43,434 nt of DNA, taken from a virus. Under the pieces are notes generated by a model. That model was not told the DNA's origin, did not search any database, and saw nothing but the letters and a program-made list of their open reading frames with translations. Of the stretch, positions 27,933-43,434 are shown piece after piece. The position numbers and the translations under genes are program-made. Positions within the stretch are counted from its first letter, which is position 1, and each line of letters opens with the position of its first letter. The stretch covers positions 1 through 43,434 of the IMG/VR virus record IMGVR_UViG_3300009161_000085; one strand, 5' to 3'.

Positions 27933-27937
27933 ACATT

Positions 27938-28939: not shown

Positions 28940-29901
28940 TGGCTGGATTAAAAAGTATATTATCATCAAAAGTATCATACACAATAACTGAGAACAACCT
29001 TGAACAGGGTGTGATCTATGCATTCTCACCCGGCACATTCTACACCAATTACTGCAACGGCTTCTGTTGGAAACCACCAGCCACAGGTTGTGCCATTGTG
29101 GAGATATGGGGTGCTGGTGGCTCAGGATCTCGTATGTGTTGTTGTGGTGGAGGACTGCCCGGCAATGCAGGTGGATATTCAAGAAAAAGCATAGCAGTGA
29201 CCACTGCCAACTTTGTGTGTGGCTGTGTGGGCTTTCCCAGATATTCTCATGATTTATGTTTTTCAGGTTGCGGTGATCCCAGCACAGTGTGTTGGACCAG
29301 CACTTCTTCCAATGGTTGCTTGTGTGCCAGAGGTGGCCGAGGTGGCACCAGTTTCTGCAGCACTGGTACCAGCATGTTCTGTTGCTACAGAGCCAACGGA
29401 TTTTGTAGTTTTGGACCCATCAACGACAACTGCGGCATTGTGTGCAATCATTGTTCAGGTGGTTGGGAATCACTGGCATACGGTGGTGACATCAACTGCT
29501 GCGGCACCATAGGTTGTACATCATTTTTAGGTTGCTATCCCACATGTCCTTGTCAAACACATCATCATGCTCCTCTGCCAGCCTACATATTTGCAGAAAA
29601 AGGCGCTAGAGTGAGTTTTCAAACATCAGACGGACAAGCCAACACAAGTGGTATGTCAGGCAGTCAGCTGCCTGCTTATCTACAATCACTGGCAGCACTC
29701 AGCAAACAGCCTACCAGAGGCACTTTCAACTCCTATTGTTGGGTATCAAACAGATCCTGCGGATGTTATGAGATGCAAGGATGTTCACCATTTTTACCCA
29801 TAGGCGCAGGTGGTCTACCTCCACAACCTTGTCCAGATGTGAGAGATCATGGAATCAGAGGCGGCTGGGGTGGCATGCGTATCAGATTTATAGCAAGTTA
29901 A
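28939..29901 (+). CDS. Cysteine- and glycine-rich adhesin-like protein 3
   Basis: The protein has 320 aa and 31 Cys. It contains CNGFCW, VEIWGAGGSGSRMCCCGGG, PGNAGGYSRKSIAV, LCARGGRGGTSFCS, FCCYRANGFC, CGIVCN, CSGGW, INCCGTIGC, YPTCPCQTHHH, CGCYEMQGC and QPCPDVRDHGIRGGWGGMRIRF. It overlaps the previous gene by one base (TAATG). It is the most divergent of the triplet in the middle region. No late promoter is visible inside the triplet, so all three are probably made together. Like its paralogues it lacks a signal peptide and catalytic motif. Alternative ideas are a metal-rich tip domain or a shuffling reservoir for adhesin tips. Confidence 0.8.
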   Translation: MAGLKSILSSKVSYTITENNLEQGVIYAFSPGTFYTNYCNGFCWKPPATGCAIVEIWGAGGSGSRMCCCGGGLPGNAGGYSRKSIAVTTANFVCGCVGFPRYSHDLCFSGCGDPSTVCWTSTSSNGCLCARGGRGGTSFCSTGTSMFCCYRANGFCSFGPINDNCGIVCNHCSGGWESLAYGGDINCCGTIGCTSFLGCYPTCPCQTHHHAPLPAYIFAEKGARVSFQTSDGQANTSGMSGSQLPAYLQSLAALSKQPTRGTFNSYCWVSNRSCGCYEMQGCSPFLPIGAGGLPPQPCPDVRDHGIRGGWGGMRIRFIAS

Positions 29902-29912
29902 TATAATATGTT

Positions 29913-29920
29913 GATAAATA
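29913..29920 (+). promoter_or_regulatory. T4-type late promoter (GATAAATA)
   Basis: A 7/8 match to TATAAATA followed by C, between the Cys-rich triplet and the 217-aa gene, 26 nt before its start codon at 29947. GAGGAA at 29935-29940 serves as a ribosome-binding site. Confidence 0.7.
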
Positions 29921-29946
29921 CACTAAATAGCACAGAGGAATAAAAT

Positions 29947-30600
29947 ATGATAAACAAAAATTTCACAATACCTTTGGCAGATGAGCCATATCTAGATACC
30001 ACCACACAGAATAAAACATACCCTGCCACCTACACAGGCCCAAGATATTTAAAAGTGTGTGTGGATAAAGAAACCAAAATAGTGGAAAGATATGTGGCTG
30101 GTGCTGACACCATGGATGGCCTAAGTGCAATCATCGCTATTGAAGAAGCTGAAAAAATGTATCAAATTTTAAATGCAGAAACACACACATTTGAAGCTGC
30201 TTATCTCACAGGCATGTACACCACCGGACCAGTGGAGAATTATACAGAAACACTGCCAACCAAAGATGCTGAAGGAGTGGATGAAACTTTTGAATATGTT
30301 TGGAACGACAACACAGGAATGATTTCACAACAGTATTACAACATAGATTTAAAATTTGTAAACGGAGCATATGTAAGACCTAGATTTAGAACTCATGCAC
30401 TGACCAGAGCAAGTTTTTTAGCCAGTTTGGTTGTGCAGGCCACAGCAATTGAAGCTGCCATTGAAAGCAACGAAACACTGTCTGATGCAGACATTGCCCA
30501 ACTGGAAACCTATGTGACCTGGTTGAGAAATGTACCTACCAAATATGCAAATGTCAAGCATTGGAAAATTCCATTCAAAATCACAGTACCAATTTACTAG
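29947..30600 (+). CDS. Protein of unknown function, putative late virion or assembly protein
   Basis: This 217-aa protein is not recognised as any named family. The first half is mixed alpha/beta (PATYTGPRYLKVCVDKET, IVERYVAGADTMDG, AIEEAEKMYQIL). The C-terminal part is helical (RASFLASLVVQATAIEAAIE, DADIAQLETYVTWLRNVPTKYANVKHWKIPF). The helical TxW-LRNxPxxY phrase resembles C-terminal tails of phage tail-fibre assembly proteins and fibre-associated proteins, in which a helix is followed by a W..P segment. It has a late promoter and a GAGGAA ribosome-binding site. It is the last late gene before the glycan-modification operon. A role in adhesin assembly is possible but not shown. Confidence 0.7.
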   Translation: MINKNFTIPLADEPYLDTTTQNKTYPATYTGPRYLKVCVDKETKIVERYVAGADTMDGLSAIIAIEEAEKMYQILNAETHTFEAAYLTGMYTTGPVENYTETLPTKDAEGVDETFEYVWNDNTGMISQQYYNIDLKFVNGAYVRPRFRTHALTRASFLASLVVQATAIEAAIESNETLSDADIAQLETYVTWLRNVPTKYANVKHWKIPFKITVPIY

Positions 30601-30610
30601 TCAAGAATAA

Positions 30611-30640
30611 TTCACAACAAAATCACTGTTGATATATAAT
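30611..30640 (+). promoter_or_regulatory. Sigma70-like promoter for the glycosyltransferase/carbamoyltransferase operon
   Basis: TTCACA at 30611-30616 (5/6 to TTGACA) and TATAAT at 30635-30640 (6/6) are separated by 18 bp. There is no TAAATA late element in this gap. This suggests transcription by the host housekeeping polymerase, that is, earlier than the surrounding virion genes. Confidence 0.55.
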
Positions 30641-30666
30641 ACTGTGTGTAAATTCGCACAGTATTA
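30637..30666 (+). promoter_or_regulatory. Long inverted repeat overlapping the -10 and start region
   Basis: TAATACTGTG at 30637-30646 is the exact reverse complement of CACAGTATTA at 30657-30666. With two further inner pairs (one G-U) the stem is 12 bp with a 6-nt loop. It overlaps the -10 hexamer and ends 5 nt before the start codon, and no U-tract follows. It could be an operator or an mRNA 5' hairpin occluding translation; a terminator is less likely. Confidence 0.6.
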
Positions 30667-30671
30667 CATAT

Positions 30672-31616
30672 ATGAATAGATCCAAAGCATTTTTTTTAAA
30701 CGGAGGTATTGGCCGAATTTTGTGTGCTATTCCTGCACTGGAAAAATACGCAGAAGAATCGGGCGATAAAGATTTTTTAGTCATTTGCGAAGGAGCTGTG
30801 GACATACTCAAAGGTCATCCCATACTGGATCAAAAAACCTACGATATTTTTCATAAAAATTTATTTCATTCTAAATTACAATCCAGAGAAATAGTAAGTT
30901 TGGAGCCTTATAGAGTTTGGGAATATTACAATCAAAAATGCAATCTATCTCAGGCTTTTGATATATTGATCAACGCCAAAGGAGTGAGGTCATTGCCCAA
31001 ACCCACCATCCATCTCAGCAAGGAAGAAACTGCTCAAGGACAAAAATTGATGGAAGAAATCAAAGCAAAAATTAAAAAAGATAAAGCCATTGTGTTTCAA
31101 CCATTTGGCAGAGGCGTAGAGCACATGGATAAAACTCTTTTGGATAAAACTGGACGCAGTTTTGAATACAAAGATGTTAAGAACTTGATACGAAAACTAC
31201 AAAAAGAAAACTTTGCAGTGATACTGATGTCAGAATTTGGCATGGATCTTAAGGATCAAAAATACACAGATGATGTGGCCATGCCCGAAGGATTGAATCT
31301 AAGAGTGTGGACAGCACTGATCAAACAAGCTGATCATTTCTTAGGCTGTGACAGTGTGGGTCAGCACTTGGCCTACATAGTAGGCACCACTTCCACTGTG
31401 GTATTGGGACCTACCTATCCCGTCAATACCACTTATCCCGATTGTGACTATTTTAACATAATGGATATGGGAGAAATAGATAGGGAGTATGATCCAATTA
31501 GAATCACCATGGACGAAAGAATTGCTAGAAAAAATGAAATATTGATGTCTATGAACGAAGAGATTGAAGACTATGTGATCAACGGAGTAATGAGAAGAAA
31601 TCAAGATGACAAGTAA
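30672..31616 (+). CDS. GT9 (heptosyltransferase-like) glycosyltransferase 1
   Basis: The protein has 314 aa. GT9 enzymes of the WaaC/WaaF type transfer L-glycero-D-manno-heptose from ADP-heptose. The N-terminal nucleotide-fold motif GGIGRILCAIPALEKY (residues 11-26) matches the GG.GD....PAL family pattern. The C-terminal donor-site motif is FLGCDSVGQHLAYIVGTTSTVVLGPTYP (from residue 223, split here by family loops). AIVFQPFGRG lies between the two Rossmann-like halves. The length fits GT9. The stop overlaps the carbamoyltransferase start by 11 nt, and a second copy follows that gene. No Shine-Dalgarno is visible. Sugar specificity is inferred from the nearby HldD/HldE genes. Confidence 0.75.
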   Translation: MNRSKAFFLNGGIGRILCAIPALEKYAEESGDKDFLVICEGAVDILKGHPILDQKTYDIFHKNLFHSKLQSREIVSLEPYRVWEYYNQKCNLSQAFDILINAKGVRSLPKPTIHLSKEETAQGQKLMEEIKAKIKKDKAIVFQPFGRGVEHMDKTLLDKTGRSFEYKDVKNLIRKLQKENFAVILMSEFGMDLKDQKYTDDVAMPEGLNLRVWTALIKQADHFLGCDSVGQHLAYIVGTTSTVVLGPTYPVNTTYPDCDYFNIMDMGEIDREYDPIRITMDERIARKNEILMSMNEEIEDYVINGVMRRNQDDK

Positions 31617-33420
31617 GCCTTCAGGTTATATTGCTGCCATTGCTAGAGGACACAATGCCGGAGTGTGTTTGTTAAAAGATGGCAACGTTGTTTTTTCCAT
31701 AGAAGAAGAAAGATTAAGTAGACAAAAATATGATGGCGGACCTTATGCCAGCATGATGGAAATATTAAAATACACTGACAAAATAGATTATTTGATTGTG
31801 GCTCACACACAAAAACTCAAAGACACAGCAGGCAAAGTGGATTTTACAGGTGATGACGTGTACACTGGACTGGCACGTAAAATGGGATTGATTGATAGAA
31901 CAGCTGATCCTCACAACCATCCTCAAGTGATTGATCTCAGTCACATACATCACAAATTACATGCTGCATGTGCTTTTTACAGATCTGGTTGGGAAAGTGC
32001 TGTGTCGGTGATTGTAGATGGTGCTGGAACATTCATTGGCATTAATAATAATATTCAAGGACAGACCACTGTTTGGGAAGTGGAATCAATTATAAATTGT
32101 GCATATCCTTCAAACTTTCATTCATTGTACAAACATTATGCCACTCGTGATGCTATGATTGGTGCAATATTAAAAAATTTTCCTTCGGACATTACTGACG
32201 AAGCTGGTAAAACTCACGAAGCAATATTCAGTGACAGAGCCGGCATAGTAAAAGTATACGAAGCTGTGACACAATATTGTGGATTCCAAGCAATTGAAGC
32301 AGGCAAAACCATGGGATTATTTCCCTATGGCAAACCCAATGATAAAATTCCGCAATTATTTGAAACTGAAGGAAAATCACCTTTGTCCAATAGAAATTTA
32401 ATTGTACCAACCTACCCTAGTGCAGCGTTAGTGAACGCTCTTATTTTTGATTATCTGGAAGATGAAATAGGAAAATCTCATGATGATGTAACATTATTAC
32501 AAAATCGTAGAGATTTGGCTTATGCTTGCCAAACACAAACTCAAGAACAAGTTTTAAAATTAATTCGTAAAGCAGTGTCCATGAGCAACAATAAGAGAGT
32601 GGTGTTGTCAGGAGGATATGGATTAAATTGTGTGGCCAACTATTATTATTTAGAACATTTGAAAGAAGAAGGAATTGAACTGTATGTGGAACCAACTTCC
32701 AACGATGCTGGCACAGCAATGGGTGCAGCATTGATGTTCTATCATCAGATATTTGCTGACAAAACTCCAAAAGTGCATAACACATTATACTTGGGTCCTA
32801 TAAGAGAATACACATTGGCAGACATTGAAAAAAGAGCCAGCATCAGTGAAAATAAAAATGTTAAAATAACAGATGCCACACACAAAGATATAGTAAAACT
32901 TTTAAAATCAAAAAATATAGTGGCCATGTTCCAAGGTAGATCAGAAAACGGTCCTAGAGCATTGGGCAATAGATCCATATTGTTTGACCCAACATTCAAA
33001 GATGGCAAAGATTTTGTAAATCTAGTTAAAAAGAGAGAATACTTCCGTCCATTTGCTGGAACTATATTGCAAGATGATGTGCATGAATGGTTTGATTTGC
33101 GTGGCATGAAAGATTCTCCGTTTATGATGTATGCTGTGAATTGTCAACCAGGTGTTGAAGAAAAAATTCCTGCAATTATTCATGTGGATGGCACTTGTAG
33201 AATACAAACAGTTACTGAAGAACAAAATAAACATTATTATGATTTAATTAAAACATTCAAAGATGAAACAGGTATACCTATATTATTCAATACTTCATTT
33301 AATTTGGGTGGTGAACCTTTGGTTGAAACTTTGGATGATGCATTTAGAACTCTAGAAAATTCCAAAATTGAATATCTATACTTGCCCGAGCATAAAAAAT
33401 TAATACACATGCCGAATTAA
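31606..33420 (+). CDS. O-carbamoyltransferase, NodU/TobZ family
   Basis: The protein has 604 aa, the usual family length. This family uses carbamoyl phosphate and ATP to place a carbamoyl group on a hydroxyl, often of a sugar. The N-terminal ASKHA-fold (Kae1-like) domain shows RGHNAGVCLL (residues 14-23), SIEEERLSR (31-39), SHIHHKLHAACAFY, VIVDGAGTF, VVLSGGYGLNCVANYYY and PTSNDAGTAMGAAL. The C-terminal carbamoyl-transfer domain shows FQGRSENGPRALGNRSI, REYFRPFAGTIL, DGTCRIQTV and LFNTSFNLGGEPLV. It is translationally coupled to GT9 copy 1 and followed 2 nt later by GT9 copy 2. The likely substrate is the sugar added by its neighbours. An alternative is modified-base carbamoylation, known for some phage relatives. 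Confidence 0.9.
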   Translation: MTSKPSGYIAAIARGHNAGVCLLKDGNVVFSIEEERLSRQKYDGGPYASMMEILKYTDKIDYLIVAHTQKLKDTAGKVDFTGDDVYTGLARKMGLIDRTADPHNHPQVIDLSHIHHKLHAACAFYRSGWESAVSVIVDGAGTFIGINNNIQGQTTVWEVESIINCAYPSNFHSLYKHYATRDAMIGAILKNFPSDITDEAGKTHEAIFSDRAGIVKVYEAVTQYCGFQAIEAGKTMGLFPYGKPNDKIPQLFETEGKSPLSNRNLIVPTYPSAALVNALIFDYLEDEIGKSHDDVTLLQNRRDLAYACQTQTQEQVLKLIRKAVSMSNNKRVVLSGGYGLNCVANYYYLEHLKEEGIELYVEPTSNDAGTAMGAALMFYHQIFADKTPKVHNTLYLGPIREYTLADIEKRASISENKNVKITDATHKDIVKLLKSKNIVAMFQGRSENGPRALGNRSILFDPTFKDGKDFVNLVKKREYFRPFAGTILQDDVHEWFDLRGMKDSPFMMYAVNCQPGVEEKIPAIIHVDGTCRIQTVTEEQNKHYYDLIKTFKDETGIPILFNTSFNLGGEPLVETLDDAFRTLENSKIEYLYLPEHKKLIHMPN

Positions 33421-33421
33421 T

Positions 33422-34372
33422 ATGAACAAAGCATTTTTTATTAACGGAGGAGCAGGTAGAACATTGTGTTCAGTGCCAGCACTAGAAAATTATGCCAACG
33501 ATAATCCCAATGATGATTTTATTATTGTGTGTGAAGGTGGCACTGATTTCTACAAAGGACATCCTAAATTACATTTTAGAGCGTATGATGTTTGGCACAA
33601 GAATCTATTCAATGAATACTTAAAAGATAGACAACTGATAACTCCTGAACCATACAGGGTTTGGGAATACTACAATCAAAAATGTAATATTGCACAAGCA
33701 TATGACATAGAGATTAATGGCAAAGGACTACGCACATTAGAAAAACCCAAAATTTATCTTTCCAAAGAAGAACTGATCATGGCAAGACAGATGATTAAAG
33801 AAATAAAAGAAACCACTAAAAAAGAAAAAATAGTAGTGTTTCAACCTTTTGGTAGAGTATCTAAAAAAGACAACGATAGTTTTATAGATGTGAGTGGTAG
33901 AAGTTTTGAATTGGAAAACATTATCAATCTAATTAGACAGTTGGGCAAACAATATGCTGTGATGGTGATGTCAGAATTTCCCATAGATTTTAGTAAACAT
34001 CAGATAAATTTTCCAGTGGCTGTGCCTCAGAATATACATATAAGAATTTGGAGTGCTGTGATAAAAATGTGTGATCATTTCTTAGGCTGTGACAGTTTGG
34101 GCCAACATCTTGCACATGCTTTTGACAAAACAGCCACAGTGGTATTTGGTTCAACATTTCCCAATAATGTTTCTTATCCAGACAATAATAAATTTGATAT
34201 CATTGACATGAACAAAGACAGTAGAATTTACAGTCCTATACGCATAACCATGGATGAATATGCTGACAGAGCCAATGAAGATGCTATGAAAATGGACAAA
34301 GAAGTGGAAAATAGAATTATGCAATCTGTCAACAGCATGATCAAACACGGCTACAAAAAGAATAAAAAATAA
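33422..34372 (+). CDS. GT9 (heptosyltransferase-like) glycosyltransferase 2
   Basis: The protein has 316 aa and is clearly paralogous to copy 1 along its whole length: NGGAGRTLCSVPALENYA, VCEG, GHP, PEPYRVWEYYNQKCN, VVFQPFGR, SGRSFELEN, MVMSEF, then DHFLGCDSLGQHLAHAF (from residue 218) and PIRITMDE. It starts 2 nt after the carbamoyltransferase stop. The two copies have diverged enough to have different acceptors, such as successive sugars or two acceptor sites. Its lysine-rich tail (HGYKKNKK) differs from copy 1. No transcription terminator is obvious; an AT-only inverted repeat surrounds 34365-34382. Confidence 0.75.
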   Translation: MNKAFFINGGAGRTLCSVPALENYANDNPNDDFIIVCEGGTDFYKGHPKLHFRAYDVWHKNLFNEYLKDRQLITPEPYRVWEYYNQKCNIAQAYDIEINGKGLRTLEKPKIYLSKEELIMARQMIKEIKETTKKEKIVVFQPFGRVSKKDNDSFIDVSGRSFELENIINLIRQLGKQYAVMVMSEFPIDFSKHQINFPVAVPQNIHIRIWSAVIKMCDHFLGCDSLGQHLAHAFDKTATVVFGSTFPNNVSYPDNNKFDIIDMNKDSRIYSPIRITMDEYADRANEDAMKMDKEVENRIMQSVNSMIKHGYKKNKK

Positions 34373-34383
34373 AATTATTTTAA

Positions 34384-34391
34384 GGTAAATA
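34384..34391 (+). promoter_or_regulatory. Late promoter (GGTAAATA) 5 nt before a start codon
   Basis: Matches TAAATAC but lies only 5 nt before the ATG at 34397. With T4-like spacing the transcript would begin at or next to the ATG, so the message may be leaderless. Confidence 0.55.
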
Positions 34392-34396
34392 CACAC

Positions 34397-34813
34397 ATGT
34401 TCAATGTAAACAACTTGTTTGGCAAGGGTGTAAAGAATACTCTACTGTTAAAAAATGGTTTAAATTTTTCAGTGGGAGGTCCTTTTACCAGTGTGCAAAC
34501 AGACACATTAATAGATAGATGGCAATTCACATCTGTATCAGCTGCTGAGTACACCATGATGGTGGACTATGATACCAACAACAAAGAAATTATAAGATGT
34601 TTGCTGGTGGGTGGACCAAACGCTGCCACAGTGACCATATATGGTCGTGGAAATCTTGGCAATGAATTAATCACCCTTACTGCCACTGTAAACGATTCAT
34701 ATGTGGAGTTACGAGCCACTGCTGCACAAGGTGCTGACAGCACCATATACTATGGTTCTAAATGCATCTTCCAAGCCACCTATTTCGAAACTCTTAATCC
34801 TATCACACGTTAA
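34397..34813 (+). CDS. Small putative virion protein
   Basis: This 138-aa, beta-rich protein begins MFNVNNLFGKGVKNTLLLKNG, with VSAAEYTMMVDYDTNNKEII, AATVTIYGRGNLGNELI and YYGSKCIFQATYFETL. It has no named family, signal peptide or catalytic motif. Composition and position, between a late promoter and a fibre-like gene, fit a late structural protein. The start has no Shine-Dalgarno and lies almost at the predicted transcription start. No in-frame alternative start is better supported by conservation that I can judge, so leaderless translation is a real possibility. Confidence 0.75.
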   Translation: MFNVNNLFGKGVKNTLLLKNGLNFSVGGPFTSVQTDTLIDRWQFTSVSAAEYTMMVDYDTNNKEIIRCLLVGGPNAATVTIYGRGNLGNELITLTATVNDSYVELRATAAQGADSTIYYGSKCIFQATYFETLNPITR

Positions 34814-34830
34814 AATAGCAGCTGGTTTTA

Positions 34831-34838
34831 GATAAATA
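34831..34838 (+). promoter_or_regulatory. T4-type late promoter (GATAAATA)
   Basis: A 7/8 match to TATAAATA followed by CAC. The start codon at 34858 is 19 nt downstream, leaving a leader of about 13 nt without a clear Shine-Dalgarno. Confidence 0.7.
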
Positions 34839-34857
34839 CACTAAAAACTAGACATTT

Positions 34858-35568
34858 ATGCCAGTAGTTAATAATCCATTAAAATCGTTGTATGGCTTTC
34901 AAAGTCCATCATTCAGCGTGAATGCTGCAGGCAATCTTGTGGCCAACAACATTACCACCAACAATATCACAGCCAACAGTATATCAGTGATTGATATTGA
35001 CTCCACAGGCACCAGCACTCTTACAGATTTATTGGTCACAGGTTCTACAGAATTGCAAAACACTTTGGCAGTGGATGGTGATTCCATTTTTAATTCCACA
35101 GTATCCATCACAGATTCAACTGCTGCCACTTCACTGGTAGCGGCTGCTTTGATTGTGACCGGAGGAGTGGCCATACAAAGCAATTTGAGAGTCAACAGCG
35201 ATATCAACATAGGTCAAAATTTATTAGCACAGAACAATGTGCAAGCCAACAATTCTTTGGTGTCCAACAGTATCACCACTGTGGATGATGGCAGCACTTT
35301 GAGCGATCTCACCATTGAACCTTTGGGTGATGTGATTTTTAGAACTGCCAGTCAAAGTGTGGAAGTGGGCAGAATAGATGCCACAGGATCCAACTTGCCT
35401 GTGCAAAACACCACCATCAACAATACCACCATAGGATTAACTGTGGCCAGCACTGCTGCTTTTGTCAGCGGCACTGTGGTGAATACTCCCACCAATGCAG
35501 CCAATATCACCAGAAAAGACTACGTGGATCGTACTGCTGTGGCTTTTGCTGTGGCTTTGGGAGCATAG
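34858..35568 (+). CDS. Fibre-like structural protein
   Basis: The protein has 236 aa. It opens with MPVVNNPLKSLYGFQSPSF followed by short beta-repeat phrases (GNLVANNITTNNITANSISV, VTGSTELQNTLAV, ALIVTGGVAIQSNLRVNSD, INIGQNLLAQNNV). The GGVAI..NLRV..DI.IG phrase is a common repeat in T4-like marine phage fibres. The end (ANITRKDYVDRTAVAFAVALGA) resembles the hinge or attachment end found before trimerisation. Low complexity and Asn/Thr richness suggest an elongated trimeric beta structure. It is probably co-expressed with the 2146-aa protein that follows, although another late promoter lies between. Confidence 0.8.
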   Translation: MPVVNNPLKSLYGFQSPSFSVNAAGNLVANNITTNNITANSISVIDIDSTGTSTLTDLLVTGSTELQNTLAVDGDSIFNSTVSITDSTAATSLVAAALIVTGGVAIQSNLRVNSDINIGQNLLAQNNVQANNSLVSNSITTVDDGSTLSDLTIEPLGDVIFRTASQSVEVGRIDATGSNLPVQNTTINNTTIGLTVASTAAFVSGTVVNTPTNAANITRKDYVDRTAVAFAVALGA

Positions 35569-35575
35569 GTAAATA
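35568..35575 (+). promoter_or_regulatory. Late promoter (GGTAAATA) overlapping the previous stop codon
   Basis: TAAATAC starts within the stop region of the 236-aa gene. A first ATG at 35578 opens an 11-codon reading frame that overlaps the real start of the 2146-aa gene at 35603. Confidence 0.55.
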
Positions 35576-35602
35576 CAATGTCTAAACACAACTCTGTAAA
35601 AA

Positions 35603-38600
35603 ATGGCTAAAAAACAGTTAAAAAATTTTATATTTGAACCAGGTATTGGCAAGGATGATGGTCTATATCCCAATGCTGCCACACTGGTACTGGCCAACAA
35701 AGCATTTTTACAACAACAGGTTGTAGCATACATCAACTACAACATCGCCAACAGCATTGCACCTTATGTGGGATATACCTACGCTTCACAAAAATGTATC
35801 AGAGACGTGGGGTATTTCATAGACGCAGTCACACACGATTTAAGATATGGTGGCAATGTTAAATGTCGTCAGGTGGCAGATTATTTTTGGATAGACGGAG
35901 AACCTCAGATCCGAGGTGATGTCACACCAGAGACCACTGGACAGGCCTATCTGCGTGATATTATCAATCAATTCATACTGACCAAAACACCAGTCACTCC
36001 CACCTACGGCAATACCACACCTCAGGTATTCACTGCAGGCATCAGCACAGAGAGTGATGCTGCCACTGCCAACATAGTGTTGTGGAATATTTTCAGCACA
36101 GTGATCACCAACGGTCCCAGTGCAATGCCAGCCAAGGTACCAGGTGTGTCTTCCATCAGAGTGATTGGACAGATTGATCCCGCCAGCATATTATTGATTA
36201 CTGATGTGGATTCAGGAAATATCTTATACAGTTTTGCTGATCCTGCCAATAGTATTTCTGTGACCTATAAACAAGGACGCAGCAGCGGCGACGGCAATTT
36301 ATTAAGTGATTTGGATTGGCCCACTTGGTGGCAGACCAGTGATTCAATCACCACCATAGACTTGAGTGCTGATACCAGCACACTCACTGTGGATTCTAAT
36401 ATACAATTTTTTGTGGAAGAAGCTGCACAAACAATCAGACCTTGGGAATTCGGCACAGATGCCATTGAACGTATGCGTGTGGCAGCGCCTCAGGCCATGT
36501 TGGATGCTGACTTTGAATATGGATTACAACCAACCAAATGGCAGGCTCTGGGCACTTTGAGAATGTATCCTTCCACATATGAAGTACCTGGCAGCGATCT
36601 GACTGTGTTGAGTTGTGTTACTGATGCATCAGTGAACACTGGATTTTTTGGTAGTTCATTGATCACTGTGACCACTTCAGGAGTGCATGGATTCACAGTG
36701 GGTCAACCCATTTCTGTGAAAGGATTAAACAGCACTGTGTCAGGATTTGCCAGAGCAGAAGGATCTTTTTTAGTGTACAGTGTGCCTAGTTCTGTGAGTT
36801 TCACTTACTATGCCAGTGCTAGAGTAGGCACCAGCAACGAACAAAGTTTGTTGACTTCATTCATACAGATACGTCAAGCACAATTTTTCACAGGTGCTTC
36901 CATAGGTCAGCCCAGTTTTTCAGTGTTCACCAATGGTACCACACTCAGCATAGTCACTGCATTATTGGCCACCACAGGAGCCACGTCATTTGTTTACATC
37001 GGATCAGCACCTACTGTGGGTTCACCCATAACAGGTCCTGCAGAAATTCCAGTGGGCACCAGTGTGTCAGGCACAGTGGGCGCTGCTTCTGTGACCACCA
37101 ATGTGTTATTGAACACTCTGGTCACTGACACTCAAATTAGTTTGACCAATCTCACTGGCATACAAACCAGCATGGCTTTGGACGTGGGCGGCACAGCATC
37201 CACCATCAACACCATAGTGGGCAGTGCATTATCATTGAGCAATCAATTGGGCGTGGCATACAAAGGTAGAGATGGTGTCAACAATGCTGTGACTGGCACT
37301 CTCACTGCTCCAGTAGGAGTAGGTGCACAATTTAATGTGACTCGCAGTGCTGGAGTATACACTTTGGTTCAAACTCCAGGAGCATCACCCACACCATTCA
37401 ACTATCAAAAAGGTGACAGATTAAAAATATTAGGCACCAGTTTGGGTGGCGCTACACCAGCCAATGACGTTAATATTTTAATCACTGCCGCAGGCACTGG
37501 TGGTGACATAGACTCATTCACATTCACAGGCACTTCCATCTTGGGCGGTGCCACTTACCTCAACATAGGACACACCGGTTACACCGGCAGCACAGGCAGT
37601 GGATTTCAAATCAATGTCACCAGAACAGGTGGCACAGGCACATATTCTATCAGCTCAGTAGCAGCAGGCACTGGTTATGTTGTGACTGAACAGGTCACAT
37701 TTGCAGGCACTCTTTTTGGTGGCACATCACCAGCCAATGACATTGTGTTGGAAATAGCTTCTGTGACTGGCACAGGCGATGTATTAACTTTCACACCAGT
37801 GGGCTCACCAGTGGGGTCATCAGGAGATGTCACTTATTCAGGCACACCAGCTCCCAACGTGTCACACTTGGGCAATGGAGCAGAATTTAACATAACCAGA
37901 AGCAATGGAGCATATTCAGTCACACTGAACAATGCAGGCACATTGTATGAAGAAGGCAACACAGTTGCAGTATCGGGCACCACACTGAATGGTGCTACTC
38001 CAACCAACGATGCCACCATTGAAATCACAGGAGTCACAGGAGGAGTCATAGACACAATCACCATCAGTGGAGTGGGTTATGCAGGTGATTCCATCACAGT
38101 GTATCCTACAGTGAGCATCAGTGAACCCATCACTGGCAACATCGCTGCTGGCACAGCTCTAAACGTGGGAGCCATTGCCACTGTACAAGTGGATTTTCAA
38201 GCTCCACACGGATTGGTTCCAGGCACCACCATATTGAGTCAGGTCACTTCGCAACCTGCACCAGAATTAGCATCCACAGCTAGAACCATCACAGGCAGCG
38301 GCACATGGTCTGTGGCTGCTCTGGGTGGAACTTTTGTGGCAGTGAGATCCGGTGCCACAGCCACACAGAGATCCACCAACGGACAAACTTGGGCAGCAGG
38401 CGGAGCATTGGATTCAACAGCTTCATGGATTTCCGTGGCAGCTGGCAGAGTGAGTGGCGTTGATTATTTTGTGGTTATAGCTTCTGGCAGCACTTCTGCT
38501 GCTTGGTCTGTGAACAGTGGACAGAGTTGGACTGCTGCTGCTCTACCCAGCGGCGCCAACTGGAGCAAAGTGGCCTATGGTGACGGTGTATTTGTGGCTG

Positions 38601-41600
38601 TGTCCACAGGTGGCACTGCTGCTGCCTACAGCACTGATGGTGGAGCCAATTGGTCAGCCAGCACACTGCCCAGCAGCGGCACATGGACCGGCGTAGCCTC
38701 AGGTTTGATAGGAACTTCCACATATTTTGTAGCAGTGGCTTCAGGCGGCACGGTGGCTGCATATTCACCAGACTATGGAGTCAACTGGATTGCCACAGGA
38801 GCACTGCCAGCCTCAGCCACATGGAGTGCTGTGAGTTACGGCAACAACAGGTTTGTGGCCATCAGCTCCGGCAGTACCAATGCAGCATTTTCCACCAATG
38901 GAACCACTTGGACACTGAGCACTCTGCCCAGCAGCACCACATGGAATGAAATAATTTACGGCGATGACGTATTTTTAATCACTGCCACAGGCACCACATC
39001 AGCTCTCACTTCATTCACTGGTGAAACAGGATCATTCACTGCAAGAACTTTGGCCACTTCATCCACTTGGGATTCTTTGGCTTACACTTATTACACTGGT
39101 CAAGGATTTGGAAGATTTGTGCTCACTGATCAATCAACCACTGCATTGGAAATCAATCTCACTTCAGCCAATCACCAGTTGGGCACAGGACCACACGTGG
39201 TATCTTCAGTGCCCAGCCCAGCTACCATAAGATTTGTGGCCAGAACCACAGGCATCATCAATATCTCCGGCAGTTCTATCACAGGAGTGGTGTATGCCAG
39301 ACCAGACAGTTTCTTTGTGCATAGACCATTTGATGGTGGAGTACAGTTGGGCACAGGTAACCCCAGCCATGGTGCACAGGCCATCAGACAGAGCAAGAAA
39401 TATATCAGATATCAATCAGGCAAAGGCATCATGTACACCACTGGAGGATTATTTGCTCCCAGTTACAATTTGTCAGGAGCCACAGCATCTGGCACAGCAG
39501 TGAACAGTTTGATCACATTCACAGCAGATGACACAGATCACGGAGTGCAGGCAGGCTGTGTGATAGAAACCATAGGATTTGTGAGTTTTGAATACAATGG
39601 AGAATTCACTGTGGAGAGTGTGATAGATGCACGCAGTTTCACTGCCAGATCAGCAGTGGTATTGAGCACCACCACAGCACTGTTGGGCACTGAATGCAAA
39701 ATGCTTATCAAATATTGGCATGGTTCAACTGTGCGTATAGGTGCATTTGATGAACAGAACGGAATATTCTATCAGTATGATGGCGAAGAGATGGCAGTGG
39801 TGCGCAGAAGCAGCACCAATCAATTGACAGGTACCATTGCTGTGAACACAGACAGCAATCAAATCACTGGCACAGGCACAAGATTTCAAGATCAATTAAA
39901 AGTAGGAGATAAGATTGTAATCAGAGGCATGAGTCATTTGGTGACTCAATTGAATTCTCAAACAGCCATGACAGTGGCTCCAGACTGGCGAGGTGCCAAC
40001 AGTATTGTGGGAGCCCGAGTGTGTATCACTGAAGAATTATATGTGCCACAGAGTCAATGGAATTTGGACAAATTGGATGGCACAGGACCCAGCGGATATA
40101 ATCTACTACCATGGCGCATGCAGATGTTGGGCATGCAGTATTCATGGTATGCAGCAGGATTCATTGAATGGATGCTGCGAGGAGCTGACGGAAAATTTGT
40201 GTTCTTACACAAGATAAGAAATTCCAATACCAACACCGAAGCTTACATGCGTACTGCCAACTTGCCTGTGAGATATGAAGTGGAAAATCGTTCAGCATTG
40301 AGTGAATTATACTCTGCAGTGAATTCTTCTCAAACCACCATAGAATTAGTTGATGCTCGTAGATTTCCTGACAATGGTGTAATTTACGTAGGCAATGAAT
40401 TGATATCATACAATGGAAAATCAGGCAGATCTTTGACTGGATGTACCCGATCAGCTTCATTTGGTTCATTCACTTCTGGAATCAACAGAGTATACACAGG
40501 TGGCACAGCATCATCATATTCCGTGGGCACTGGAGTCACATTGGTCAGTTGCACAGCCACTCCCACTATCAGTCACTGGGGGTCAGCGTTGCTCACTGAT
40601 GGTTTATTTGATGAAGACCGAGGATACATTTTTAACTATGCTGCCACAGGATTGAGTGTGAGCACTGCCAAACAGACTGCCTTTATGATCAGATTGGCTC
40701 CATCTGTTTCCAATGCATTGGTGGGAGATTTGGGTGAAAGAGATTTATTAAACAGAGCACAATTGTTATTGAATGAAGTGGCAGTGACCACTGACACAGG
40801 CTCAGGCACTGTGGTTATAGAAGGAGTATTGAATCCAAGAAATTATCCTGCCAATCCATCCAACATCACTTGGACAGGTCTGGCCAGCTCTGCTGCAGGA
40901 GGTCAACCAAGTTTTGCGCAGATAGCACTGGGGGGTTCTATCAACTGGGGAGGTGTGCCACTGACCACCACCACTGCTACCATACAAGGAGCACTGACCA
41001 CCACTGTGAATGCTAGAGGATTCTCCACTGTCACACAGAACTTGACAGCCATTGCCAACTCAGGATTTAGAACTCGTTCGTTTCAAACCACCTCCAATGA
41101 TTTTTATATCACCAACACAGCTTATGATGCATTAACCAGTACTCCTTTGAGAGTGGGTGACAGACTGTCAGAGGGTACTTTTGTCACTGCAGGACAGAGT
41201 ATTTCCAATATTACTCGTGCATATTTGGGGAGTATATACACCAGAATTGAAATGAGTTCTGCTGCCAACGGCAACAGTACTATTGGTGTCAACGTGACCA
41301 TCAGTGTGCAGAACAGTATCTCAACCAACTATGCCAGCGCCTATGTGAATGGCAGAACAGATTTTTTAATCACTAACGCAGAAGCAACATCTTCCAACAT
41401 CACAGTGGGTGATGTATTGCTGGTCTCCACTTTTGTGATCAGCAGTCAGACAGTGGCCACCATCACCAGTTCATATGCCACGGTCAGCGGAGTAGCTTAC
41501 ACACGCATAGTGATGAGCAGTGCAGCCAATGCCACTCAGGCAGTGAACACCGCCACTGCTACCACAGTCACAGCTGCCGGCACAGGAGCAACTTACACAG

Positions 41601-42043
41601 GTAACTTCATATTCTTCACACAGGCCACTTGGAACAACTCGGGCGCTTCCAATGGTACCAGAGTGGCCACTTCATTCACACAATTTCCAGCCAACACTTC
41701 TGTGAGTGCTGTGAGCAATAGAAGATTGGGCAGCACCACTGTGATCAGAGCCACGTTCACACAGACACTGGCCACTTTGGTGTCAGCTGCAGGCACAGTG
41801 ACCTTCCAGTTTGGCGATCCACAGTTTGCACTGCCAGGTGAACAGGTGTTTTCATTCTTGTTGCAACCAGGAGCATTGGCTGCTTTGAGTTTGAAAGAAT
41901 TAAAAGAGTTAACCACCACTGCCATAGGTGGCAGAGGCACGTTCCCCAATGGTCCAGACGTGTTGGCCATCAATATCTACAAGATATCAGGCTCAGCAGT
42001 GAATGGATCTGTTATTTTGCGATGGGGTGAAGCTCAGGCGTAA
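35603..42043 (+). CDS. Giant modular virion protein C
   Basis: The protein has 2146 aa. Residues 1-100 hold FIFEPGIGKDDGLYPNAATL, NKAFLQQQVVAYI and SQKCIRDVGYFIDAVTHDLRYGGN. Next is APQAMLDADFEYGLQPTKWQ (near 36490), a phrase seen in large T4-like cyanophage structural proteins. Three copies of an LGG..P.ND module follow (37312-37560, 37585-37830, 37870-38105), then a propeller with Asp-box turns (38280-39100). After that come KKYIRYQSGKGIMYTTGG, the TTIELVDARRFPDNGVIYVG module (40330-40400), a twofold repeat (41055-41590) and the conserved end LKELTTTAIGGRGTFPNGPD. The start is the ATG at 35603; no strong ribosome-binding site is seen. Its last 32 bases overlap the convergent cupin gene. Virion location is unknown; a baseplate-proximal or fibre protein is likely. 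Confidence 0.85.
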   Translation: MAKKQLKNFIFEPGIGKDDGLYPNAATLVLANKAFLQQQVVAYINYNIANSIAPYVGYTYASQKCIRDVGYFIDAVTHDLRYGGNVKCRQVADYFWIDGEPQIRGDVTPETTGQAYLRDIINQFILTKTPVTPTYGNTTPQVFTAGISTESDAATANIVLWNIFSTVITNGPSAMPAKVPGVSSIRVIGQIDPASILLITDVDSGNILYSFADPANSISVTYKQGRSSGDGNLLSDLDWPTWWQTSDSITTIDLSADTSTLTVDSNIQFFVEEAAQTIRPWEFGTDAIERMRVAAPQAMLDADFEYGLQPTKWQALGTLRMYPSTYEVPGSDLTVLSCVTDASVNTGFFGSSLITVTTSGVHGFTVGQPISVKGLNSTVSGFARAEGSFLVYSVPSSVSFTYYASARVGTSNEQSLLTSFIQIRQAQFFTGASIGQPSFSVFTNGTTLSIVTALLATTGATSFVYIGSAPTVGSPITGPAEIPVGTSVSGTVGAASVTTNVLLNTLVTDTQISLTNLTGIQTSMALDVGGTASTINTIVGSALSLSNQLGVAYKGRDGVNNAVTGTLTAPVGVGAQFNVTRSAGVYTLVQTPGASPTPFNYQKGDRLKILGTSLGGATPANDVNILITAAGTGGDIDSFTFTGTSILGGATYLNIGHTGYTGSTGSGFQINVTRTGGTGTYSISSVAAGTGYVVTEQVTFAGTLFGGTSPANDIVLEIASVTGTGDVLTFTPVGSPVGSSGDVTYSGTPAPNVSHLGNGAEFNITRSNGAYSVTLNNAGTLYEEGNTVAVSGTTLNGATPTNDATIEITGVTGGVIDTITISGVGYAGDSITVYPTVSISEPITGNIAAGTALNVGAIATVQVDFQAPHGLVPGTTILSQVTSQPAPELASTARTITGSGTWSVAALGGTFVAVRSGATATQRSTNGQTWAAGGALDSTASWISVAAGRVSGVDYFVVIASGSTSAAWSVNSGQSWTAAALPSGANWSKVAYGDGVFVAVSTGGTAAAYSTDGGANWSASTLPSSGTWTGVASGLIGTSTYFVAVASGGTVAAYSPDYGVNWIATGALPASATWSAVSYGNNRFVAISSGSTNAAFSTNGTTWTLSTLPSSTTWNEIIYGDDVFLITATGTTSALTSFTGETGSFTARTLATSSTWDSLAYTYYTGQGFGRFVLTDQSTTALEINLTSANHQLGTGPHVVSSVPSPATIRFVARTTGIINISGSSITGVVYARPDSFFVHRPFDGGVQLGTGNPSHGAQAIRQSKKYIRYQSGKGIMYTTGGLFAPSYNLSGATASGTAVNSLITFTADDTDHGVQAGCVIETIGFVSFEYNGEFTVESVIDARSFTARSAVVLSTTTALLGTECKMLIKYWHGSTVRIGAFDEQNGIFYQYDGEEMAVVRRSSTNQLTGTIAVNTDSNQITGTGTRFQDQLKVGDKIVIRGMSHLVTQLNSQTAMTVAPDWRGANSIVGARVCITEELYVPQSQWNLDKLDGTGPSGYNLLPWRMQMLGMQYSWYAAGFIEWMLRGADGKFVFLHKIRNSNTNTEAYMRTANLPVRYEVENRSALSELYSAVNSSQTTIELVDARRFPDNGVIYVGNELISYNGKSGRSLTGCTRSASFGSFTSGINRVYTGGTASSYSVGTGVTLVSCTATPTISHWGSALLTDGLFDEDRGYIFNYAATGLSVSTAKQTAFMIRLAPSVSNALVGDLGERDLLNRAQLLLNEVAVTTDTGSGTVVIEGVLNPRNYPANPSNITWTGLASSAAGGQPSFAQIALGGSINWGGVPLTTTTATIQGALTTTVNARGFSTVTQNLTAIANSGFRTRSFQTTSNDFYITNTAYDALTSTPLRVGDRLSEGTFVTAGQSISNITRAYLGSIYTRIEMSSAANGNSTIGVNVTISVQNSISTNYASAYVNGRTDFLITNAEATSSNITVGDVLLVSTFVISSQTVATITSSYATVSGVAYTRIVMSSAANATQAVNTATATTVTAAGTGATYTGNFIFFTQATWNNSGASNGTRVATSFTQFPANTSVSAVSNRRLGSTTVIRATFTQTLATLVSAAGTVTFQFGDPQFALPGEQVFSFLLQPGALAALSLKELKELTTTAIGGRGTFPNGPDVLAINIYKISGSAVNGSVILRWGEAQA
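37312..38105 (+). repeat. Three LGG/NGxTPxND modules in protein C
   Basis: The pattern is GA.FN.TR..G.Y.V....G..Y..GD.....GT.LGG.TP.ND..I.I. Copies are at 37312-37560, 37585-37830 and 37870-38105. Single related copies occur in protein A (15420-15650) and, more weakly, protein B (22775-22970). Confidence 0.7.
38280..39100 (+). other. Asp-box (BNR-like) propeller domain in protein C
   Basis: Five Asp-box-like turns at regular spacing of about 40-45 residues: STNGQTW (38372-38392), SVNSGQSW (38507-38530), STDGGANW (38630-38653), SPDYGVNW (38764-38787), STNGTTW (38891-38911). Each is preceded by a strand such as GVFVAVSTGG or RFVAISSGS. Related to the propeller in protein A but in an otherwise different protein. 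Confidence 0.7.
41055..41590 (+). repeat. Twofold repeat near the C-terminus of protein C
   Basis: Two units of about 90 residues share R..F......F.IT......... VGD.L...TFV...Q....I...Y....G..YTRI.MSSAAN. Copy 1 spans about 41055-41310 and copy 2 about 41335-41590. Confidence 0.65.
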
Positions 42044-42416
42044 CAGTTTTTTGACTGTCACCAGGCACTATTCTATAATTGTCTTCCACGCTGTCTGCAG
42101 TGGAAACTTCTGTGATTGAACTGTTGTCCAACACAGCTTCCAATTGATGAGGTTGTAGAGGAGGATTGTGCCAAGTTTGACCTTCGCTTAATTCCTTCTG
42201 ATATATTTTAGCATCCTTGGTGTCTATCCAACGCACTAAAAATTTTCCAGAATTCACAAACCAAGTTTCCTCTTTGTGTTTGTGAAAATGCAGTGAACAC
42301 TTGTTGCCTGCTTTGGTAAACACTAAAATTTTTCCACAGTAATTGTCATTGGTGGCCCATATTAATTCATAACCCCAACCTTTGTCTATTTTGCCTTCTT
42401 GTCTATTCACGGTCAT
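42012..42416 (-). CDS. Cupin-domain protein similar to the phosphomannose-isomerase C-terminal type
   Basis: The protein has 134 aa and is a single cupin barrel. GWGYELIW (residues 13-20) and KILVFTKAGNKCSLHFHKHKEETWFV give candidate metal ligands His43, His45 and Glu49 or Glu50. A second-motif histidine is His90 (PPLQPHQLEAV). The pattern matches the sugar-phosphate isomerase/cupin domain fused to mannose-1-phosphate guanylyltransferases, though here it stands alone. Such proteins often act in nucleotide-sugar metabolism. Its start overlaps the end of hldD by 14 nt, so the genes are co-transcribed. Its 3' end overlaps the convergent giant gene by 32 nt. Isomerase or epimerase substrate unknown. 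Confidence 0.75.
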   Translation of the reverse strand: MTVNRQEGKIDKGWGYELIWATNDNYCGKILVFTKAGNKCSLHFHKHKEETWFVNSGKFLVRWIDTKDAKIYQKELSEGQTWHNPPLQPHQLEAVLDNSSITEVSTADSVEDNYRIVPGDSQKTVTPELHPIAK

Positions 42417-43230
42417 TGCGAATATATTCCTCTATGGTTTTGTATTGGATGTTCACATGAGTATTTAAAAGAGTTGTGTCAGCACAGGTATAAGTTTGAT
42501 ACTGTGCTTTTAATTGTGTTGGCATGGGCACTAATTCTATACGAGCATTGTATTTTTTGGCAATTATTTCTGCTACTTCAGCAAAACTTGTGGGTGTTCC
42601 TGTGCCCACATTAAAAATACCACTCACATCTTTGGTCAACATTTGTTCATGCACATCACAAACATCATCCACGCACACAAAATCTCTCAGATATTTTTCA
42701 CTATTTTCAAAAAGTTTAATTACTCCTGCTTGTTGAGCTTGTTGAATAAATTTTGAAATGGGCGATGCTTGGTTGCCTTTGTGTTCTTCATGTGCTCCAT
42801 ACACATTAAAATATCTAAATCCTTGCACTGATATGTTGTATTCACTGTAAGGAACAGATTTAATCATTCTATCAAACAAAAATTTACTCCAAGCATAAGC
42901 ACTCAATGGAGACATGGCAGCATCTTCTTTGAAATTTTTTGTTAGACCATACACACTGGCTGAGCTGGCGTATTGAAAATTAATACCCATCATATCACAC
43001 AGGTACAATAATTTACAACTGAAATCAAAATTTTGAATCATTATTTTTTCCACATCTGTTTCTGTGGTGCTGCTGATAGCACCCAAGTGTATCACTTGAT
43101 CGTGTTTGGTTACATCTGGCATCACATCAGGAATATAATCATATCCTTCCACTGTGTGTCCTTTGTTCACAAGATGTTTGAATAGATTTTGACCGATAAA
43201 TCCTTTGTGTCCTGTGATTAATATTCTCAT
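42403..43230 (-). CDS. hldD: ADP-L-glycero-D-manno-heptose 6-epimerase
   Basis: HldD converts ADP-D-glycero- to ADP-L-glycero-D-manno-heptose, the donor for LPS inner-core heptosyltransferases. This 275-aa protein is a short-chain dehydrogenase/epimerase with ITGHKGFIG (residues 5-13) for NAD(P) binding and Tyr112-x-x-x-Lys116 (YAWSK). It also has features specific to HldD: HLGAISSTTETD, YASSASVYG, GFRYFNVYGAHEEHKGNQAS (Lys151 at the expected second catalytic position), LFENSEKYLRDFVCVDDVCDV, GIFNVGTGTPTSF and LKAQYQTYTCAD. It is slightly shorter than the about 310-aa bacterial enzyme. ATG overlaps the stop of the upstream HldE-type gene (ATGA), giving an operon HldE-HldD-cupin. Identification is strong. 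Confidence 0.88.
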   Translation of the reverse strand: MRILITGHKGFIGQNLFKHLVNKGHTVEGYDYIPDVMPDVTKHDQVIHLGAISSTTETDVEKIMIQNFDFSCKLLYLCDMMGINFQYASSASVYGLTKNFKEDAAMSPLSAYAWSKFLFDRMIKSVPYSEYNISVQGFRYFNVYGAHEEHKGNQASPISKFIQQAQQAGVIKLFENSEKYLRDFVCVDDVCDVHEQMLTKDVSGIFNVGTGTPTSFAEVAEIIAKKYNARIELVPMPTQLKAQYQTYTCADTTLLNTHVNIQYKTIEEYIRNDRE

Positions 43231-43434
43231 GATTGTAATCTATCTATAATTTTTGTGGTGGAAAATCCTTCCACGGTGGGAAATATAATCACTCGTGCCA
43301 ACTCATTGCCTACTGTGGTGGACACTGTGTAATCTCCACCTTTGACAATAATGTCTGGTTTAATTTCTTCTATGATTCTTTGTGGAGTATCTTCTGTGAA
43401 TAGCACTACTTCGTCCACCCAAGGCAACATTTCC
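43227..43434 (-). CDS. HldE/RfaE C-terminal-type sugar nucleotidyltransferase, partial (N-terminus outside the window)
   Basis: Only the last 68 or so codons are present; the frame stays open to the window edge. VDEVVLFTEDTPQRIIEEIKPD, IIVKGGDYTVSTTVG and IIFPTVEGFSTTKIIDRL match the C-terminal adenylyltransferase domain of HldE, which makes ADP-D-glycero-beta-D-manno-heptose from heptose-1-phosphate and ATP. Related cytidylyltransferases share the fold, but the VKGGDYTV and VEG.STT pair is characteristic of HldE. The stop overlaps hldD by 4 nt. Whether it is a stand-alone nucleotidyltransferase or a fusion with the kinase domain cannot be seen here. Confidence 0.8.
   Translation of the reverse strand, partial: EMLPWVDEVVLFTEDTPQRIIEEIKPDIIVKGGDYTVSTTVGNELARVIIFPTVEGFSTTKIIDRLQS

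Follow-up and report, generated by a model that had tools for sequence, protein, structure and literature searches.

Why would a virus of bacteria carry genes to make an activated heptose, to transfer it and to carbamoylate the product, and onto what would the sugar be placed? The question is raised by the IMG/VR virus record IMGVR_UViG_3300009161_000085, a stretch of 43,434 bases (the window) that belongs to a T4-like virus of bacteria. On its plus strand two GT9-like glycosyltransferase genes flank a carbamoyltransferase gene (30672-34372, the triad), and genes for HldE, HldD and a small metal-cupin run on the minus strand at the right edge. Such a cassette is already known in cyanophages; that of the window is a variant of it, well conserved and real. 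ADP-heptose enzymes occur in viruses, according to commentaries on Tang et al. (Science 2024), and the reason viruses make the sugar is unsolved (PMC11461863, PMC11573728). Here the enzymes are tied to particular transferases and to the fibre region, which makes the question testable directly in cultured cyanophages.

The reading preferred here is that two units, one making the donor and one transferring it, lie within the tail-fibre region of the phage and that a fibre or adhesin is the acceptor. Taken in full, this comes close to an even bet without quite reaching it. In the proposed pathway the cupin would convert sedoheptulose 7-phosphate to D,D-heptose 7-phosphate. HldE would phosphorylate this product, a phosphatase, perhaps the host's, would remove the 7-phosphate, and HldE would then adenylylate. 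HldD would epimerise ADP-D,D-heptose to ADP-L,D-heptose, from which the two GT9-type enzymes would add what is presumably heptose to the acceptor, and the carbamoyltransferase would put a carbamoyl group onto the product, probably on the heptose itself. The acceptor would be the phage's own fibres or adhesins in preference to host lipopolysaccharide (LPS).

A second record, G001 (47,378 bases), is identical to the window across 33,681 bases with 0 mismatches and extends 13,697 bases past its right edge. Among 50,697 phage records no near-identical match to window positions 20000-43434 was found. The window holds no tRNA genes, and the host markers psbA and CsgG were each found in 0 of 14 related IMG/VR records (classed linear, possibly fragments), so that neither points to a host.

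The transferase genes

The NodU/TobZ-type carbamoyltransferase (31606-33420, plus strand, 604 amino acids, phrog_1601) has both Pfam domains above their cut-offs, as the preliminary description would lead one to expect: PF16861 at 3.6e-59 (199.6 bits, cut-off 27) and PF02543 at 2.7e-24 (86.7 bits, cut-off 24). Its PDB matches are 7xb6, GdmN and TobZ (3ven), and its alignment holds 15 of 24 non-redundant sequences, drawn from 77.

GT9-type protein A (30672-31616, plus strand, 314 amino acids) and its paralogue B (33422-34372, plus strand, 316 amino acids) both belong to phrog_8954. Protein A is assigned by Pfam, a structural model and fold matches, and protein B by Pfam and an alignment of the family (38 of 41 non-redundant sequences from 127, with three cyanophage isolates excluded). 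Their open reading frames (ORFs) are intact. PF01075 (GT9) scores for the two are 17.5 and 15.2 bits with a cut-off of 22, and the NCBIfam scores are also under cut-off; within the family the profile matches 25 of 38 members at E <= 0.1, the best at 6.5e-7. Searched as a profile against PDB sequences, the alignment gave one match, at E 0.044, which is not a transferase, and hhalign against E. coli WaaC and WaaF aligned no more than a C-terminal part, at a probability of 16%. Comparison by fold was more successful.

The AlphaFold2 model of protein A has a pLDDT of 89.8. In VIA-align it superimposes on the GT9 structure 3TOV with a Z of 23.7 (3.6 Å, 280 residues), followed by WaaF (21.2), TibC (20.4) and WaaC (19.3). 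GT9 entries overall span Z 23.7-18.8, photosystem NDH subunits form an exception at 18.6-18.4, and UDP-sugar enzymes reach at most 11.6. Foldseek gives a near tie between TibC (1.5e-10), 3TOV (1.7e-10) and WaaF (2.2e-10). The protein heptosyltransferase TibC is first in Foldseek, whereas VIA-align puts 3TOV and WaaF above it.

Aligned with E. coli WaaC and WaaF, the family shows an identity of about 12% (about 11-13%), at which single columns outside motifs are uncertain. The positions of WaaC D261 and H266, which we take to be donor-site residues, are retained in 38 of 38 sequences. What we take to be the catalytic Asp of WaaC, D13, is replaced by Arg, and the proteins are therefore called GT9-type by fold rather than proven GT9 heptosyltransferases. 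The GT9 identity proposed earlier stands in the fold of protein A and in the donor Asp and His, which are retained, and does not stand in the catalytic Asp, which is replaced; the Pfam scores, under cut-off for the window proteins, decide neither way.

The donor unit

HldD (42403-43230, minus strand) matches TIGR02197 at 4.2e-71 (239.7 bits, under the cut-off of 274.6). Its four top PDB matches are all named HldD, the first being E. coli HldD 1EQ2 at 6.7e-51, and the alignment with 1EQ2 displays the YxxSK and EHKG/GHKG stretches. The window edge truncates HldE to its C-terminal 68 amino acids (43227-43433, minus strand; TIGR02199, 3.1e-17). The full protein, taken from G001 (ORF L208:75-1325), has 416 residues and joins a PfkB-type kinase to an adenylyltransferase; its best families are PRK11316 (2.1e-105), TIGR02198 (8.4e-70) and TIGR02199 (4e-44), all under curated cut-offs. 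Both minus-strand ORFs lie intact where they had been placed, and the ADP-heptose route that had been read from them is supported by the profiles. The STTR5 motif, described in a passage of PMC11461863 as an Arg within (F/L)xxGxSTT, is not in the HldE of the window phage, which reads TVEGFSTT.

The preliminary description had suggested looking for gmhA and gmhB beyond the right edge. Neither is among the ORFs of the 13.7 kb past it, and both profiles are negative in G001; the kinase half of HldE, a NUDIX gene and virion genes are found there instead. The NUDIX gene (PF00293, 6.3e-14) is upstream of HldE on the same strand. Also ahead of HldE on that strand are a gene matching phrog_11196 and phrog_227 (tail sheath or sheath stabiliser; gp15 by position) and a virion structural gene matching phrog_11591 (gp14 by position). 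By profile and position these two are gp15 and gp14. The donor unit comes behind them on their strand, where neighbouring genes either overlap or stand no more than 13 bases apart. Genes for a head-tail adaptor, tail sheath and tail tube occupy the plus strand of the same region.

GmhA (PF13580, SIS_2) was found in 0 of the 14 related IMG/VR records and 0 of 3 cyanophage records searched whole, most of these 17 being fragments. GmhB (TIGR00213) is in 1 of the 17 phage records, which is not the window phage, and this counts against the preferred reading; a host enzyme could serve as the 7-phosphatase. Two observations on related enzymes may be recorded. In a relative without an HldE match, a GmhB-like phosphatase gene (L066:12936-13574, minus strand; PRK08942, 1.2e-28, under cut-off) is beside the carbamoyltransferase gene. 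Records G011, G013 and G014 each have elsewhere a second, weaker heptose-adenylyltransferase-type match (7.2e-24 to 2.4e-22).

The cupin

The last gene of the unit, downstream of HldD (42012-42416, minus strand), encodes a metal-cupin of phrog_7851, a family labelled 'cysteine dioxygenase'. It was not mentioned in the preliminary description and is the most useful new lead. We propose, without proof and from its sequence and context, that it is a sugar-phosphate isomerase: a non-orthologous sedoheptulose-7-phosphate isomerase. If true, the proposal would fill the first pathway step in phages and in archaea and bacteria of the candidate phyla radiation (CPR) without GmhA, and would correct a database label. 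It is made because some cellular relatives of the gene occur in heptose operons, because many of the genomes holding it lack a GmhA-like protein, and because there is a cupin precedent for the mannose-6-phosphate isomerase reaction. The GmhA reaction is the seven-carbon version of that reaction, which cupins are known to catalyse.

Residues H43, H45, E50 and H90, the 3-His-1-Glu metal ligands common to many cupins, are the same in all 34 sequences of an alignment of relatives from phages and cells (the window and 33 of 48 non-redundant sequences, from 82). In a smaller alignment, PF07385 (D-lyxose isomerase) matches 8 of 14 members. The profile matches are weak: oxalate decarboxylases and quercetinase come just before D-lyxose isomerase (1.6e-5 to 5.5e-5), and L-ribose isomerases are also met. 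The model has a cupin fold with a pLDDT of 90.6. VIA-align puts CapF first (Z 15.9), then phosphomannose isomerase (14.3), D-lyxose isomerase (13.8) and the putative cysteine dioxygenase 4qm9 (13.4), with quercetinase and KdgF also near CapF. Because several unlike cupins match about equally, the fold leaves the reaction unsettled. GmhA proper was considered and rejected for this gene, the SIS fold not being found; since the model is a cupin, it is at most GmhA-like in role and is not called GmhA.

The cupin occurs in 35 phage records, all from cyanophages or marine viruses. In cells, a scan of a species genome collection kept 76 of 90 stretches. Within 5 kb of the cupin, 29 of these loci have a kinase, 27 an HldE-type adenylyltransferase, 26 HldD and 20 all three. 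These counts come from loose, home-made neighbourhood profiles (3-5 seed sequences each), of which 'HldD' and 'Kin' may match other short-chain dehydrogenase/reductase or PfkB proteins; the NCBIfam check covered 10 proteins, taken from 5 loci. Fusions of cupin and kinase occur in 5 of the 76 loci, and a fusion of cupin and HldD in 1. In three fusions tested, the kinase part is best matched by the heptose-7-phosphate kinase family TIGR02198, under cut-off. An archaeal relative matches TIGR01479 (phosphomannose isomerase) at 1.1e-7, far under cut-off.

Some relatives of the cupin in archaea and CPR bacteria sit in heptose operons. In a Woesearchaeota run (L149) the cupin is accompanied by HldD and a heptose kinase, both above cut-off, and by a fusion of GmhB with an HldE adenylyltransferase, both parts slightly under; by these profiles, all pathway steps except GmhA are present. 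With TIGR00441 at E <= 1e-10 over at least 110 positions (a cut of our own) taken as GmhA-like, such a protein is lacking in 18 of 27 genomes with the cupin, in 11 of the 18 genomes searched for the 20 loci with all three neighbours, and in 4 of the 5 cupin-kinase fusion loci. Most of these cellular genomes are metagenome-assembled, with no completeness stated, and phage contigs may be among them. One such contig (L132, NZVE01000039.1), titled as a Rhodobacteraceae metagenome-assembled genome, carries a cyanophage-type cassette and is probably a phage contig binned with a bacterium. In a metagenome-assembled genome titled Neomarinimicrobiota (L098, L099), on contigs that may be cellular or viral, HldE, HldD, a cupin 73% identical to that of the window and a carbamoyltransferase lie within about 14 kb.

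Several counts tell against the isomerase role. No kinase, adenylyltransferase or epimerase match is within 5 kb of the cupin in 39 of the 76 loci. GmhA-like proteins are present in 9 of the 27 genomes, and 20 of the 27 have some TIGR00441 match at E <= 0.001, none above cut-off. SIS_2 matches at E <= 0.001 occur in 19 of 28 cellular cupin genomes, 15 above cut-off, several of them at the ends of 580-630-residue frames that are not GmhA-sized. A literature search joining cupin, sedoheptulose and GmhA, the one search aimed at this point, met a single paper with all three terms, a review of cold-active enzymes; no published report of a cupin as GmhA substitute is known to us. The joint claim, that this cupin (T4-GC 307) stands in for GmhA in phages, in CPR bacteria and in DPANN archaea as a self-sufficient entry to ADP-heptose and that phages heptosylate and carbamoylate their own fibres, is put forward tentatively and as a whole must be called doubtful.

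Conservation among relatives

The relatives of GT9 protein B in the IMG/VR scan (the best 80 of 462) lie on fragments of up to 21 kb. The order GT9-carbamoyltransferase-GT9 is found in 43 of these loci, a single GT9 gene before the carbamoyltransferase in 30 (at least two of which, L080 and L081, end inside the carbamoyltransferase gene), a cut locus showing carbamoyltransferase-GT9 in 6, and GT9 alone in 1. Wherever a locus shows at least two of the genes, which is so in 79 of the 80, their order is the same. The minus-strand cupin-HldD-HldE unit follows in many loci. Searched whole, 9 of the 14 related records have the HldE adenylyltransferase; of the 5 without it, G002 ends inside the unit.

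Fifty-three phage records have a GT9 match. The 23 at 34.7% identity or above are cyanophages and marine single-cell viruses, many of them duplicates of about ten distinct viruses, and the cupin is present in 22 of these 23, the exception being a fragment of 4,094 bases.

Some loci hold additional genes. Single-GT9 loci L060, L057, L084 and L054 have 1-2 genes between GT9 and carbamoyltransferase, and L066 and L071 have none. The inserted genes at L060:10993-12816 and L057:10960-11778 begin MSRLFTFGCSYT; the two proteins tested have no Pfam match. In or after the minus-strand unit, an extra gene at L087:4254-4850 matches phrog_274 ('DNA endonuclease V' label) at 1.1e-44 and, weakly, 2OG-Fe(II) oxygenases. 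A gene at L094:6246-6842 in the same situation matches nothing tested.

Promoter-like signals

Ahead of the triad is a sigma-70-like promoter site, TTCACA-18-TATAAT (30611-30640, plus strand), with 11 of 12 consensus matches. It is a consensus match only, the best of 25 sites in 29900-34500, where 19.2 are expected. With duplicate upstream stretches removed, TATATAATA precedes the first GT9 gene in 8 of 48 stretches, and none of 473 other genes has it. All 8 carriers are the window's closer relatives, and L013, in the same identity range, is without it. A promoter-like score of at least 10/12 is reached ahead of 11 of 46 first-GT9 genes and 6 of 533 others, and in 4.3% of cases when those stretches are shuffled; many of the 46 stretches are from near relatives, and one (L041) belongs to a second GT9 copy at a locus truncated before the neighbouring gene. 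Weaker scores mean little, because at least 9/12 is reached in 24.7% of shuffles (18 of 46 first-GT9 genes, 61 of 533 others). An inverted repeat (30637-30666, plus strand) that overlaps the triad's -10 and 5' leader is predicted to form a hairpin with a 12 bp stem (-15.5 kcal/mol, z -6.15). Hairpins are also predicted in L009 and L016 (3 of 3 folded). The repeat could be an operator or a leader hairpin.

In other clades the first GT9 gene has the T4-late-like motif TATAA[AG]TA ahead of it (13 of 48 stretches; for other genes, 13 of 473), and this speaks for late expression there. TATAAATA is absent from the window. ATAAATA occurs 8 times in the window where 5.9 are expected, a count that is unremarkable because 25 of 100 shuffles reach it. 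Five of the 8 sites are 27-34 bases before gene starts (unassigned ORFs in the fibre region). The motif also lies 13 bases ahead of the start taken for the leading gene of the minus-strand unit, which is the first of the two virion genes. Two distinct promoter-like signals are thus likely in the window clade, judged by consensus matches only: a sigma-70-like site for the triad and ATAAATA for the donor unit. The separate apparent promoters of the preliminary description are borne out to that extent, and read-through from an upstream site is possible.

The acceptor and alternative explanations

Candidate acceptors are close at hand. Three Cys/Gly-rich, adhesin-like paralogues (26961-29901, plus strand), the third matching phrog_4205 at 2.3e-9, are upstream of the triad, and between the two units is an ORF of 2146 amino acids (35603-42043, plus strand) that is fibre-like by size and place. 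We lean towards the phage's own fibres or adhesins over host LPS, because the genes are placed with fibre genes (in the window, S-SSM7, S-CAM1 and P-SSM2), because the donor unit is contiguous with virion genes, and because heptose is missing from most cyanobacterial LPS. On the last point, passages in PMC4390846 and PMC4515613 describe cyanobacterial LPS as mostly without heptose and list Spirulina as having it; cyanophages nevertheless have the cassette.

A number of findings pull the other way. The GT9 fold leaves the acceptor undefined. With psbA found in none of the 14 related records, reasoning from cyanobacterial LPS may not hold for the window phage. Early expression and host modification would agree with the separate sigma-70-like site ahead of the triad in the window clade. 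A pelagimyophage study favours, in the passage concerned, modification of the O-chain (PMC7029224), and the relevant part of Sullivan et al. 2010 calls these genes LPS genes and leaves open whether they are functional (PMC3037559). WaaC-type catalysis by the family is in doubt: the D13 position is Arg in 38 of 38 sequences. Four large records (G008, G009, G010 and G012; 165-223 kb) have GT9 and carbamoyltransferase with no HldE match, so that donor and transfer units are separable. Of the 53 phage records that match GT9, the remaining 30 come from Vibrio and Aeromonas phages (at most 28.7% identity among the 7 matches listed), and none of these has the cupin.

These findings feed two rival explanations. 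In the first, the GT9 enzymes would decorate the host's LPS, or some other glycan of its envelope, with carbamoylated heptose, and this would mask receptors and keep other phages out. The host surface is favoured by the promoter site of the triad with its TATATAATA, by the LPS core role of the solved GT9 relatives WaaC and WaaF, and by the phage LPS literature, the O-chain argument included; in Synechococcus phage Bellamy, moreover, genes annotated with heptose-type labels are inside a larger sugar and glycosyltransferase cluster. This explanation is somewhat improbable, since the donor unit is contiguous with virion genes, TATAA[AG]TA precedes the first GT9 gene in other clades, the genes keep near fibre genes in the window clade and in three cyanophages, and most cyanobacterial LPS has no heptose.

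In the second, the GT9-like proteins do not transfer heptose: their donor would be some other nucleotide sugar, or they would no longer be catalytic, and the heptose genes would supply another transferase. Besides the Arg at D13, the position of WaaC K192 is Arg in 38 of 38 sequences, a column less certain at such divergence. The sub-cut-off Pfam and NCBIfam scores point the same way, as do the four large records without HldE and the 30 distant ones without the cupin. Set against these are the invariant D261 and H266 positions, a whole-length GT9 fold with a clear margin, the cupin in 22 of 23 records with a closer GT9 relative, and the GmhB-like gene beside the carbamoyltransferase in one record without HldE; this second explanation is distinctly unlikely. 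Finally, that the genes have no selected function in infection and are filler DNA for headful packaging, a point raised for cyanophage LPS genes in a passage of Sullivan et al. 2010 (PMC3037559), is scarcely credible given intact ORFs, motifs conserved over large divergence, the same gene order in 79 of 80 loci, a fused HldE and overlapping genes.

Other genes of the window

At its left end (4-858, plus strand) the window has a gene for HemB, porphobilinogen synthase (PRK09283, 2.4e-52, under cut-off). Relatives occur in 16 IMG/VR contigs with identity down to 59%, and phage records give 9 matches (29-36% identity), of which six are in records no longer than 5.4 kb. The terms 'HemB' and 'porphobilinogen synthase' are not in the main text of a paper on phage tetrapyrrole genes (PMC11480375).

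Comparison with known systems

With the ADP-L,D-heptose pathway the window phage has HldE (both domains) and HldD in common; it differs in that no SIS-type GmhA is found, a cupin is present, and no GmhB is seen. With WaaC, WaaF and TibC the GT9-type proteins share the fold and the Asp-x-x-x-x-His donor motif, and differ in the Arg for Asp13 at about 11-13% identity. Like the O-carbamoyltransferases NodU, CmcH and TobZ, the phage protein has both Pfam domains above cut-off, and it may transfer the carbamoyl group to a sugar hydroxyl. The cupin shares the metal-cupin fold and 3-His-1-Glu ligands with mannose-6-phosphate isomerase and D-lyxose isomerase, with weak profile matches. Other cupins, including 4qm9, fit the fold about equally, and its substrate is proposed from context.

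The closest counterparts are the T4-GC 302-308 genes of the Kyanoviridae (PSSM2_307-313 in P-SSM2, and S-SSM7 and S-CAM1), which have the phrog_8954 protein, the carbamoyltransferase and heptose genes in common with the window. In P-SSM2, S-SSM7 and S-CAM1, GT9-like, carbamoyltransferase, HldE adenylyltransferase, kinase, HAD-like, cupin and HldD genes are near fibre genes. Sullivan et al. 2010 report, in the part concerned, that T4-GCs 304, 305, 307 and 308 (adenylyltransferase, kinase, cupin and HldD) co-occur with three others in P-SSM2, S-SM2 and S-SSM7 (PMC3037559), and a passage of PMC7378029 describes SynMITS9220M01 with heptose genes. The 'phosphoheptose isomerase' label of T4-GC 306 (L002:24459-24794, L003:16912-17256 and L004:16762-17085) is rejected. 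These are DxDxT HAD-like proteins, not isomerases of the GmhA kind, with no Pfam match in 3 of 3 and no SIS_2 in those records; one, the only one of the three searched, matches the capsule biosynthesis protein 9iqw at 1.1e-10.

The cassette is directly before the neck genes in S-SSM7, S-CAM1 and the window, is flanked by fibre genes in P-SSM2, and is interrupted by other genes in S-SSM7. In contrast to the cyanophages, the window clade has no match to their HAD-like gene and no psbA in 14 related records; a further GT9 copy follows its carbamoyltransferase, its HldE is a fusion, and its donor unit runs on the opposite strand, preceded by two virion genes and a NUDIX gene.

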